From: Actinoplanes sp. L3-i22
GTDB taxonomy: Bacteria; Actinomycetota; Actinomycetes; Mycobacteriales; Micromonosporaceae
Direction of reading: 5' to 3'
Length of the DNA: 64,000 bases
Assembly (NCBI RefSeq): GCF_019704555.1
Contig: NZ_AP024745.1
Span: forward strand, 3,170,501-3,234,500
Under the pieces are notes generated by a model. The model worked only from the letters and a program-made list of their open reading frames with translations. It ran no database searches and was not told where the DNA came from. Every line of letters begins with the position of its first letter. Positions within the stretch are counted from its first letter, which is position 1. Below are positions 32,469-63,147 of this stretch, piece after piece. The position numbers and the translations under genes were made by a program.

Positions 32469-32622
32469 AAGATCAAATACTCTATTGCCTCGGCTGCGGC
32501 CAATAACTGATCGTCGCTCCCGCGGGGACCCCTCCGGGCTTCGCAGGGCGCTGGCGCGCCCAGGACGCGAAACCCTACGGGGCGATGTCCGTGGGTGGTC
32601 GCGGTTCAGAAGGACCACGCGA
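32469..32622 (+). repeat. Structured dispersed element, copy A
   Basis: First of three copies of a 154/155-bp non-coding element. It starts AAGATCAAAT, has a nearly invariant core GCCTCGGCTGCGGCCAATAA then CTGATCGTCGCTCCCGCGGG, a variable hairpin centre, and ends GGTTCAGAAGGACC. In this copy the centre folds as: outer stem 32536-32544 / 32567-32575 (9 bp, one mismatch) and terminal stem 32546-32551 / 32556-32561 (6 bp, TGGC loop). It lies in a 511-bp gene-free gap (32257-32767), 213 bp after the ppdK stop and on the same strand. Beyond it (32623-32767) I see no further feature except the ribosome site of the VOC gene. Confidence 0.85.
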
Positions 32623-32767
32623 ACGGCCTGCCGACTGGCGGCGCTGCGGCGCTCCCGGCCGCCGGTGTCGTTGTCTCGTCCGGGTAAGGGTGCCGGATCG
32701 GGTCGAAAATGTCGGAGGGTGGGTTTAGCGTCCGGAGGACAGCGTTTCGATGGCAAGGGAGCCTGCG

Positions 32768-33175
32768 ATGACGTCCCGACTCAATCCGTACCTGACGTTC
32801 AACGGCAACGCCCGTGAGGCGATGGAGTTCTACCGGTCGGTCTTCGGCGGTGAGCTCCGGGTCAACACGTTCGGCGAGTTCGGCGCGCCGGACGAGTCGA
32901 TCAAGGACAAAGTGATGCACGCGATGCTGGAGACCCCGCAGGGTTACACGCTGATGGCGTCGGACACCCCGCCGGGCATGCCGTACACCCCCGGCAACAC
33001 GAACACGGTGAGCCTCAGCGGCGACGCCGGCGACAACCTCCGCGACTTCTGGGAGAAGCTGGCCGACGGCGGCACCGTCCACGTCCCCTTCGAGAAGCAG
33101 ATGTGGGGCGACGAGTTCGGCCAGCTCGCCGACAAGTTCGGCGTCCCGTGGATGGTCAACGTGGTCGCCGCCTGA
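32768..33175 (+). CDS. VOC-family protein (PhnB/glyoxalase-like)
   Basis: A 135-residue vicinal-oxygen-chelate fold protein of the PhnB/DUF1338-like 3-demethylubiquinone-type group: 'LNPYLTFNGNAREAMEFYRS' at the start, 'MHAMLETPQGYTLMASDTPP' in the middle, and the typical end 'WGDEFGQLADKFGVPWMVNV'. Family members bind metal or small substrates; function is not fixed by the sequence. GGGAG lies 6 nt before ATG 32768, which is preferred to the ATG at 32750. It is a single-gene unit between copy A of the dispersed element and the recQ tandem array. Confidence 0.88.
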   Translation: MTSRLNPYLTFNGNAREAMEFYRSVFGGELRVNTFGEFGAPDESIKDKVMHAMLETPQGYTLMASDTPPGMPYTPGNTNTVSLSGDAGDNLRDFWEKLADGGTVHVPFEKQMWGDEFGQLADKFGVPWMVNVVAA

Positions 33176-33360
33176 CAACCCGCACCGTTGGCGGCAGCGG
33201 ATCACCTCAGCACGCCGGTCGCTCTCGCCCCGGTCGGGCAGTGAGCGACCGGCCTGCGTTTTGACCCCCGGCCGCCCTGCCGGCTGACCGGCGAGCGGCC
33301 GGTGCGCGCCTTCCGAAGCGGCCTCCGGCCTCGGCATCGGCTTGGAGGCCGCTGTCGAGG

Positions 33361-33560
33361 CCGGGGTCGGGGACCAGGTCGGGATCAGCTCAGAGGTCGG
33401 CGTCGGGGATGAGGCCGGGTTCAGCTCAGAGGTCGGGGCCGCGGCCGGCTCAGAGGTCGGCGTCGGGGATGAGGTCGGGTTCAGCTCAGAGGTCGGGGCC
33501 GCGGCCGGCTCAGAGGTCGGCGTCGGGGATGAGGTCGGGCTCCGGGTCCGGGCCGAGGTC
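33361..33560. repeat. 60-bp tandem array spanning the recQ stop codon
   Basis: Units 33421-33480 and 33481-33540 are identical in 59 of 60 bases; a degenerate partial unit lies at 33361-33420 and the array grades into the recQ 3' end. The 60-bp period keeps the reading frame, and each full unit carries the recQ-frame stop. It fills most of the 334-bp gap 33176-33509; the remainder (33176-33360) shows nothing recognisable. Confidence 0.85.
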
Positions 33561-61394: not shown

Positions 61395-62852
61395 ATGTCG
61401 ACCATCACCGATGCCGGCACCACCCAACTCGTCGTTGCCGCGCTGCTCGGCATCGCGGTGGTCGTCGTGCTCATCGCCTGGGCCAAATGGCATCCGTTCC
61501 TCGCCCTCATCCTCGGGACCGCGACGCTCGGCCTGGTCGCCGGCGCCGCTCCCGCCAAGATCGTCACCTCGTTCACCACCGGGCTGGGCAGCACGGTCGG
61601 CAGCGTCGGCGTGCTGATCGCGCTCGGCTCGATGATCGGCGCGCTGCTCACCCAGTCCGGCGGCGCGGACGGCATCGTGCAGCGGCTGGTCACCGGTGTC
61701 TCCGGCTCGGTCCTGCCCTGGGCGATGGCCGGCGTCGCGGCGCTCGTCGGGCTTCCGCTGTTCTTCGAGATCGGCGTGGTCCTGCTGGTGCCGATCGTGC
61801 TGCTGGTGGCCCGCCGCACCGACGTGGGGCTGCTGCGGATCGGGATCCCGGCGCTGGCCGGCCTGTCCGTGCTGCACGGGCTGGTGCCGCCGCACCCGGG
61901 TCCGCTCGTCGCGATCGACAGCCTGCACGCGGACCTCGGCCTGACCCTGATGTTCGGGCTGATCTGCGCGATCCCGACGGTGATCGTGGCCGGCCCGATC
62001 TTCGGCAACTTCATCGCGGCGCGCGTGCCGGTGGCGGTGCCGCGGGCCGCCGTCGCGGTCGGCGCGGGCGGCGTGGGCAGTGTCGGTAGCGCGGACCTCG
62101 ACGCGGACCGGTCCGCCGGCGGCCCCGGGAACCCGGCTGACCTCGACGCCGACGGCGTGCCGGACCGCGCCGAGGGGCGCCGCCGGAACCCCGGCTTCTG
62201 GCCCGCCGTCCTCACCGTGCTGCTGCCGATCGTGCTGATGCTCGCCCGGGCGATCGCCGAGCTGACCCTGGCCGAGGGCAACGATGTCCGGTCGGTCCTC
62301 GAAGTTCTCGGCACGCCGGTCGTCGCGCTGCTCTTCGGTGTCCTGCTGGCGATGTGGTCGCTCGGCTACCGGGCCGGCTTCGACCGCCGGGAGACGTCCG
62401 CGGTGATCGGCGGCTCGCTGCCGCCGATCGCGGCCATCCTGCTGATCGTCGCCGCGGGTGGCGGGTTCAAGCAGGTCCTGGTCGACACCGGGGTCGGCAA
62501 CGTGATCGCCGACGCGGCCAAGGACGCCAGCATCAACGCGCTGCTGCTCGGGTTCCTGGTCGCGGTCGGCATCCGGGTCGCGACCGGCTCGGCGACGGTC
62601 GCCACGATCACGGCGGCCGGCATCGTCGCGCCGCTGGCCACCACCCTGGACAAGCCGACGGTGTCGCTGCTGGTGCTGGCCATCGGGTCCGGGTCGCTGT
62701 TCTTCTCGCACGTGAACGACGCCGGGTTCTGGCTGGTCAAGGAGTACTTCGGGATGACCGTCGGGCAGACCATCAAGACCTGGTCGGTGATGGAGACGAT
62801 CATCTCGGTCGTCGGCTTCGGCTGCGTGATGCTCCTCAGCCTGATCGTCTGA
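61395..62852 (+). CDS. GntP-family gluconate/organic acid permease
   Basis: A 485-residue symporter with 12-14 membrane segments of the GntP family (gluconate, 2-hydroxyacids): 'TTGLGSTVGSVGVLIALGSM', 'GLPLFFEIGVVLLVPIVLLV', 'PPHPGPLVAIDSLHADLGLT', 'RVATGSATVATITAAGIVAP' and 'SHVNDAGFWLVKEYFGMT' are all typical. ATG 61395 begins before TM1. Odd: the central loop (about residues 215-260) is expanded and contains 'DLDADGVPDRAEG', a DxDxDG-type calcium-binding motif not usual in the family. Single gene; a terminator hairpin follows. Confidence 0.92.
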   Translation: MSTITDAGTTQLVVAALLGIAVVVVLIAWAKWHPFLALILGTATLGLVAGAAPAKIVTSFTTGLGSTVGSVGVLIALGSMIGALLTQSGGADGIVQRLVTGVSGSVLPWAMAGVAALVGLPLFFEIGVVLLVPIVLLVARRTDVGLLRIGIPALAGLSVLHGLVPPHPGPLVAIDSLHADLGLTLMFGLICAIPTVIVAGPIFGNFIAARVPVAVPRAAVAVGAGGVGSVGSADLDADRSAGGPGNPADLDADGVPDRAEGRRRNPGFWPAVLTVLLPIVLMLARAIAELTLAEGNDVRSVLEVLGTPVVALLFGVLLAMWSLGYRAGFDRRETSAVIGGSLPPIAAILLIVAAGGGFKQVLVDTGVGNVIADAAKDASINALLLGFLVAVGIRVATGSATVATITAAGIVAPLATTLDKPTVSLLVLAIGSGSLFFSHVNDAGFWLVKEYFGMTVGQTIKTWSVMETIISVVGFGCVMLLSLIV

Positions 62853-62886
62853 CCCGGCCCACAACACCCTGCCCGGGCCCGCGTTT

Positions 62887-62928
62887 CGGCCCGGGCTTCG
62901 GCCCGGGCCCGCGCCGAAGCCCGGGCCG
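62887..62928 (+). terminator. Terminator after gntP
   Basis: Perfect 15-bp stem (62887-62901 / 62914-62928), 12-nt loop, within a run of GGCCCGGGC repeats that allows alternative pairings, 35 nt after the stop. Confidence 0.7.
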
Positions 62929-62992
62929 GGCGGCGCTTGCGGCCTTCGACCGGTACCGCGACGCGCGGCTGGGCGGCGACCCGGCAACCGGC

Positions 62993-63147
62993 TCGCGTGG
63001 GTCCTTTGAAACCGCGACCACCCACGGACATCGCCCTTGCGGGTCTCGTGTTCTGGGCGCCCCGCGCCCTTGCGAGGCCCGGAAGGGTCCCCGCGGGAGC
63101 GACGATCAGTTATCGGCCGCAGCCGAGGCAATGAAGAATTTGATCTT
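62993..63147 (-). repeat. Structured dispersed element, copy C
   Basis: Third copy, on the minus strand, starting at the base right after the phospholipase D stop codon (TGA 63150-63148) and running towards the convergent gntP gene. Outer stem 63080-63072 / 63049-63041 keeps pairing, with T-A of copy A replaced by C-G. The 5' constant part differs from copies A and B at only a few bases. Confidence 0.85.

Follow-up and report, generated by a model that had tools for sequence, protein, structure and literature searches.

A genus-wide family of structured intergenic repeats in Actinoplanes resembling REP and ERIC elements

Introduction

ERIC and similar intergenic imperfect palindromes have no known transposase. 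REP and REPIN sequences, as described in a published account (PMC3116915), are short, extragenic, hairpin-forming elements of high copy number, without a gene of their own and with clusters of partial copies. The same features are found in the repeat studied here, which was noticed as three copies in a stretch of 64,000 nucleotides (64 kb, hereafter the window) of Actinoplanes sp. L3-i22 (contig NZ_AP024745.1, positions 3,170,501 to 3,234,500). It is also short, extragenic, hairpin-forming and present in high copy number, lacks a gene of its own and forms clusters of partial copies. The three copies are members of a family of dispersed Actinoplanes repeats with a core of about 100-140 bases. 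On balance, we think it probable that these repeats are non-autonomous, fold as a single strand, are copied via this folded strand and are then kept. No description of the present repeat was found in an open-licence full-text literature search.

Results

Copies in the window, the chromosome and related genomes

The three copies were located again in the window at the positions given by the first-pass annotation, i.e., 32469..32622, 49792..49946 and 62993..63147 (copies 1, 2 and 3). The covariance model R2, built from 25 copies of several species, found exactly these three in the 64 kb at an E value of 0.001 and no others. The description as a three-copy element is correct for the window and not for the genome. 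On the 12.0-Mb chromosome, 190 places match a 27-base core with at most three mismatches, about equally on both strands (94 and 96), and since the reversed control of this pattern search gave 0, chance is excluded; the further copies expected in the same genome do exist. Searches by DNA similarity and with R1, a covariance model built from 32 own-genome copies, found at least 41 and at least 150 places, respectively, the weakest among the R1 matches listed having an E value of 4.6e-30. The 150 located copies are spread over the chromosome, with none between about 3.82 and 5.37 Mb. All 12 pairs of neighbours less than 6 kb apart are in opposite orientation, and inverted pairs of whole units are also present. 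No replication-strand bias was detected (38/35 vs. 33/44; Fisher p 0.33; origin assumed near coordinate 1). For annotation, this means about 190 such places in the gene gaps of the genome studied.

By DNA similarity, 15 of the 23 further Actinoplanes genomes matched, as against 0 of 16 genomes of other families. R2 matched 58 of 67 genus genomes, the one studied included, and 19 of 150 genomes in a sample of the family (13 of Actinoplanes and six of two other genera); these genome counts were obtained under stricter filters with the best 47 or 21 candidates per genome scored, and the absences are provisional. The nine R2-negative genus genomes (G073, G007, G008, G015, G067, G070, G071, G081 and G082; G-numbers denote genomes, with G000 the one under study, and L-numbers loci) could serve as a comparison set for a trans-acting gene. 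In one of them, G071, a tail-like remnant lies behind dnaJ (L377).

The six genomes of the two other genera gave one weak match each, and these weak matches represent a shorter related form, consisting of a left box GACCGTCGCTCCCGCCGG, a different hairpin and a right box CCTGCCAGGTCCG. Of 101 genomes, 8 contain the two-box pattern; these represent 5 of the 44 genera sampled from the family, Actinoplanes among them, and the reversed control gave 0. R3, a model of the short form that detects known short-form copies, also matches three of six long-form loci weakly (E 0.013-0.038); this fits a common descent of the two forms, short of proof. R3 had no match in the 34 named ppdK loci or in the window, and its order-wide run (0 of 397 genomes, the best 11 of thousands of candidates per genome scored) is uninformative, as the positive controls were also without a match.

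No Rfam family matched the window at gathering score, and under permissive settings copy 1 and nine loci gave only matches at E 0.48 and E 0.22; the Rfam group II intron models had no match in the window, copy 1 or the nine loci. The statement that no named family matches is in agreement with this, and a candidate new family is supported.

The conserved fold

The fold was evaluated in a wide alignment of 104 matches (100 distinct rows), which was fitted to the R2 structure and consists of related sequences, both of which favour the pairing and covariation counts. In the inner helix and apical hairpin, 89.3% of the cells are paired, compared with 73.9% in shuffles and 28.8-47.7% with slid partners, and in 13 of the 19 pairs both partners vary, compared with 9.6 in shuffles and 8-10 after sliding. 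The covariation score is 0.306 against 0.080 in shuffles (0 of 500 reach it) and at most 0.115 after sliding by 1-3 columns; the conserved structure with covariation proposed from the three window copies has thus held up. In a scan of all column pairs, ranks 1-3 were base pairs (92/124, 93/123 and 83/133) and rank 4 was a non-pair (28/75). All five compensatory pairs first reported are real. Within the first 32 copies, however, 7/42, 10/39 and 11/38 are due to copy 2 alone, while 9/40 and 1/48 vary elsewhere too. Copy 2 has the most divergent inner stem among the first-aligned copies.

Alignment columns, covariation and folding place the main covarying hairpin at 32529..32582 (- strand) in copy 1, at 49852..49905 (-) in copy 2 and at 63034..63087 in copy 3, where the putative folded strand is the + strand of the window. 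In the apical stem, columns 97, 100 and 113 of alignment A4 vary together, commonly as either A,G,C or T,C,T, of which T,C,T leads to one A-G mismatch on the minus strand and was seen by eye in the short form too. In a dnaJ-linked copy of G065 (L389, 2470-2583), the hairpin is apparently duplicated in tandem within the element. An alternative outer helix, GUCGC/GCGAC, was inspected by eye and is unsupported.

Which strand folds

In the orientation first read (plus), copies 1 and 2 lie on the + strand and copy 3 on the - strand of the window. The opposite (minus) strand is likely, though not proven, to be the one that folds, as suggested by the direction of wobble pairs in the inner helix and by better z scores relative to shuffles. 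Among the non-Watson-Crick transitions of the inner helix in the wide alignment, 107 cells are A-C on the plus strand, which corresponds to G-U on the minus strand and places the folded strand there, as against 4 of the reverse kind; counted once per genome and pair, the numbers are 70 and 4. The same direction was seen in the 32 own-genome copies (16 vs. 0) and in a separate alignment of G048 and G057 (29 vs. 8 for eight script-selected pairs, of which two are doubtful). The z scores for copies 1, 2 and 3 were -2.46, -3.60 and -3.04 on the minus strand and -1.93, -2.08 and -1.57 on the plus strand, and the 5' part of the minus-strand fold is identical in all three. Against this, the raw energy of copy 1 is lower on the strand first read (-64.2 vs. 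-62.7), and single-sequence energies are lower on the minus strand in 51 of 96 cases. The single-sequence minus-strand fold pairs the region of the outer stem differently, and the outer stem is doubtful. With the methods used, a folded RNA and a folded single DNA strand are not distinguishable, and an RNA and a mobile DNA are not exclusive of each other.

Position relative to genes

Copies are enriched at the 3' ends of genes and mostly avoid divergent gaps. With genes called by our own simple gene finder and only copies with a called gene on each side included, 66 of 124 copies (37 from this genome, 87 from relatives) lie in convergent gaps and 6 in divergent gaps; the corresponding values for other gaps of at least 100 nt at the same loci are 4 and 33 of 73. 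The short form is similar (10 convergent and 0 divergent among 17). In relatives, the left end is within 30 nt of a stop codon in 38 of 60 cases. The suggestion that each copy follows a gene on its own strand applies to this genome (35 of 40 copies; co-directional gaps split 12 vs. 3) but not generally to relatives, whose co-directional gaps are divided 16 vs. 21 (28 vs. 24 overall). A strict orientation rule was rejected, as the relatives do not comply with it.

In the window, the distances of 212, 82 and 0 bases to the stop codons of ppdK, an NCS2-type permease gene (Xan_ur_permease) and a PLD-domain gene were confirmed, as were the three genes; copy 3 starts immediately past the PLD-domain stop codon. 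A terminator-like inverted repeat with 18-nt arms (100% matching) lies behind ppdK just ahead of copy 1 (32396..32449, +), and another with 17-nt arms (88%) lies between the permease gene and copy 2 (49721..49755, +). Since copies 1 and 2 are beyond these repeats, a simple 3' untranslated region reading, as put forward earlier, is unsuited to these two copies. Behind ppdK of A. liguriensis (L285), 50 bases are 78% identical to the repeat at 32396..32449, and there is no R2 element.

Ends, truncated copies and arrays

A AAGATCAA-type tail forms the left end of copy 1 (32469..32478, +), and the same is found in copies 2 (49792-49801) and 3 (63138-63147). At least one AAGATCAA-like unit was present at the left end of 24 of 30 copies here, 78 of 93 in relatives and 33 of 45 in G048/G057 (control windows: 2 of 30, 0 of 92 and 1 of 45), and at least two units in 0 of 30, 22 of 93 and 14 of 45, respectively (controls: 0 of 30, 0 of 92 and 0 of 45). 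At the right end, the tail motif was found in 2 of 30, 12 of 93 and 12 of 45 copies; there the motif GATCAA was direct in 20 and inverted in 1 among 138 copies of relatives, with 0 and 0 among the 30 here. Terminal inverted repeats are absent from the ends of copies 1 and 2; in copy 3 there is a single imperfect pair of 9 nt, extending into the flank. About 100 bases past copy 2, TTTGATCTTGGGG (50045-50057) is the reverse complement of CCCCAAGATCAAA at the left end of that copy and may be an inverted tail motif or a remnant.

Short-form copies form arrays in L220 (1521-1917; period 81, 4.9 copies, 98% matches) and L219 (1263-1561), in which truncated units on the tail side are broken at the hairpin and one full copy stands at the far end. 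A BLAST search with half elements over the fetched loci gave 224 places with both halves (places fetched twice being counted twice), 0 with the right half only and 70 with the left half only, most of the latter being short-form copies or complete ones whose right half is divergent. True left-only copies, judged by eye, are few, e.g., L201, L272, L379, L391, L392 and the arrays; L379, L391 and L392 are from the dnaJ set. The one-sidedness is compatible with synthesis beginning at the tail and ending at the hairpin, whether through a reverse transcriptase or through DNA polymerase slippage.

Gain, loss and retention

No R2 match was found downstream of ppdK in A. liguriensis, A. siamensis, A. 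utahensis, A. couchii, A. solisilvae and Actinoplanes sp. M2I2, of which A. liguriensis has the best ppdK match among the named relatives (94%); these relatives assign the genome to Actinoplanes/Paractinoplanes. As four of these six element-free relatives keep the same glyoxalase-family next gene within 0.5 kb, copy 1 was either gained here or repeatedly lost there. Downstream of the NCS2 permease gene, this genome and G014 carry the element in plus orientation, while another variant in the opposite orientation is found in G062 and G075; in G062, htpG comes next after it, as here. The other permease orthologues had no element by eye or by half-element BLAST, except for a left-side fragment in G056.

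Behind dnaJ, R2 matched 15 of 30 loci (drawn from the 67 genomes), all in the direction of dnaJ, with one match truncated (L392). The dnaJ-linked match is present here (L376) and in G052, G049 and G076, the latter three having one R2 match each. DnaJ and RNA-methyltransferase domains were confirmed at one dnaJ locus (L183). The gap behind dnaJ appears as a hot spot, e.g., in L376, L365, L366 and L372, and in L366 (G049) a long CCGGAA-type hexamer array follows the element.

The close species G048 and G057 have 21 copies at the same places (23 and 22 detected). Differences amount to 157/2974 (5.3%) in the element, 223/1971 (11.3%) in the left and 377/2025 (18.6%) in the right 100-base flank, a comparison in which the left flank is partly coding and the need to detect both copies favours well-kept ones. 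Paired sites differ in 57 of 2379 and unpaired sites in 99 of 1763 cases, each difference being counted from both partners. Many copies are thus of long standing and under constraint, and others are not the same from species to species.

At four of eight shared loci (RIESKE, AEHTF, MALL and MCIG), the lead of orthologues over non-orthologues was no more than 0.3 points, and copies from the same genome were closer; an orthologue signal was seen at TYR, GuaB and DTD, and PTPS showed a small excess (86.9 vs. 84.6) from few comparisons. For the dnaJ copies of G000 and G014 clearly, and of G058 weakly, the core is nearer to paralogues of the same genome (the best of few) and the left part nearer to orthologues; the other 7 of 10 genomes lack this pattern. 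There is no more than a hint of concerted evolution among copies.

Search for a mobilising enzyme

The Y1 transposase profile PF01797 had no match in the genome studied or in the element-bearing G068, G058, G065 and G022. It matched in 5 of the 12 genomes searched, namely the element-rich G010 (5) and G014 (3), G023 (1), G133 (1) and G073 (8), which has no R2 match. No R2 match lies within about 1.5 kb of any of the 18 Y1 loci fetched. With no Y1 match here and no copy beside the Y1 genes fetched from other genomes, membership in the REP/RAYT group was rejected, and the repeat is not a standard REP or REPIN.

Discussion

Origin and maintenance of the repeat

In the reading that we favour, of repeats copied via a folded single strand, new copies would arise in trans from the folded bottom strand, as RNA or single-stranded DNA, through an enzyme. 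They would survive mainly where promoters and genes stay unseparated, and many would be kept once in place, possibly through a role of the hairpin at the ends of transcripts or as a binding site for a protein. Several observations weigh against this. In the inner helix, 102 cells are plain mismatches on either strand, and the G048 and G057 copies differ without any compensatory double change; their wobble direction is 24 vs. 11 when both partners of each pair are counted. RNAalifold slightly prefers the plus strand (-100.9 vs. -99.5 on the minus strand), and in the outer stem, which was selected on the plus strand, the wobble bias runs the other way (190 cells vs. 31). Exact ends and a target duplication are not readable, the element-free ppdK sites have no alignment across the insertion point, and the absence behind ppdK could reflect repeated loss instead of gain. 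The nearly complete sharing leaves no sign of recent movement in G048 and G057. A mobilising gene was not detected, with the Y1 profile searched in 12 genomes and reverse transcriptases not searched.

Retention at the 3' ends of genes could also mean that the repeat is a cis-acting RNA element, a terminator or mRNA-stabilising structure for neighbouring transcripts, which spread formerly and was kept for its function. The enrichment at gene ends, the slower change than in the flanks (with paired sites differing in 57/2379 and unpaired in 99/1763 cases) and the same-direction matches at 15 of 30 dnaJ loci are in favour of it. However, orientation to co-directional genes is not fixed (28 vs. 24) despite a wobble bias for one strand, a separate terminator-like repeat already precedes copies 1 and 2, and the same genes in other relatives have no element behind them, so that this explanation is considered possible and still rather unlikely. 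A multi-copy family of genes for a trans-acting small RNA would agree with the conserved boxes and structure, but inspection of the alignments by eye revealed no conserved flanking sequence as a potential common promoter, and this origin is very improbable.

As for the way of copying, the one-sided truncation and the tail repeats are the basis for supposing a SINE-like retroposon, in which RNA from the bottom strand, ending in a 3' tail of UUGAUC-type repeats, would be reverse transcribed in trans, tail first, by a host or foreign reverse transcriptase, giving 5'-truncated copies, repeated tails and tandem truncated arrays that were later kept at gene 3' ends. Multiple AAGATCAA-like units in 22/93 and 14/45 copies with none in the controls, the L220 and L219 arrays with truncated tail-side units breaking at the hairpin, the existence of tail-only partial copies with 0 right-only ones, and a putative folded strand that is the one expected of such an RNA all agree with it. 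On the other hand, the arrays are explained equally well by a DNA polymerase slipping at the hairpin, and complete but divergent copies or copies of the short form make up most of the 70 left-only matches, the true ones being few and judged by eye; we consider the retroposon quite improbable. An element of REP or REPIN type moved by a Y1 transposase (RAYT or IS200/IS605) would likewise be extragenic, hairpin-forming and of high copy number with tandem partial arrays, and Y1 matches do occur in two element-rich genomes (five in G010, three in G014) and singly in G023 and G133. Nevertheless, PF01797 has no match in the genome studied and four other element-bearing genomes and reaches eight matches in the R2-negative G073, and the surroundings of all 18 Y1 loci, to about 1.5 kb, are free of R2 matches; such a transposase is already very unlikely.

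Comparison with known systems

The genus-wide set supplies a single fold in numerous natural versions, together with covariation and a preferred strand, including several genomes without the enzyme that moves REPs, and allows tests of what spreads and what retains such repeats. Eukaryotic SINEs are similar in having a structured unit, a repeat tail in some copies and one-sided truncation, but the Actinoplanes repeat lives in a bacterial host and its link to a reverse transcriptase is only hypothetical. Like MITEs, it is small, non-autonomous and of high copy number; it differs in that its right-end motif GATCAA is direct, not inverted, and that the three window copies share no terminal inverted repeat. 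Integron attC sites go with an IntI integrase and a gene-cassette array; the 150 located copies of the repeat are scattered over the chromosome. ERIC is comparable in size and likewise intergenic, structured and without a known enzyme, whereas the sequence (not compared directly) and host group are different, and the Actinoplanes repeat has a measured genus-wide covariation and a strand preference. A REPIN is an inverted doublet of short REPs, whereas the Actinoplanes unit has about 140 bases and one internal covarying hairpin, with inverted pairs of whole units present as well. The genus-wide family of structured repeats resembles REP/ERIC-type elements in its working, yet stands outside the definition of a REP.

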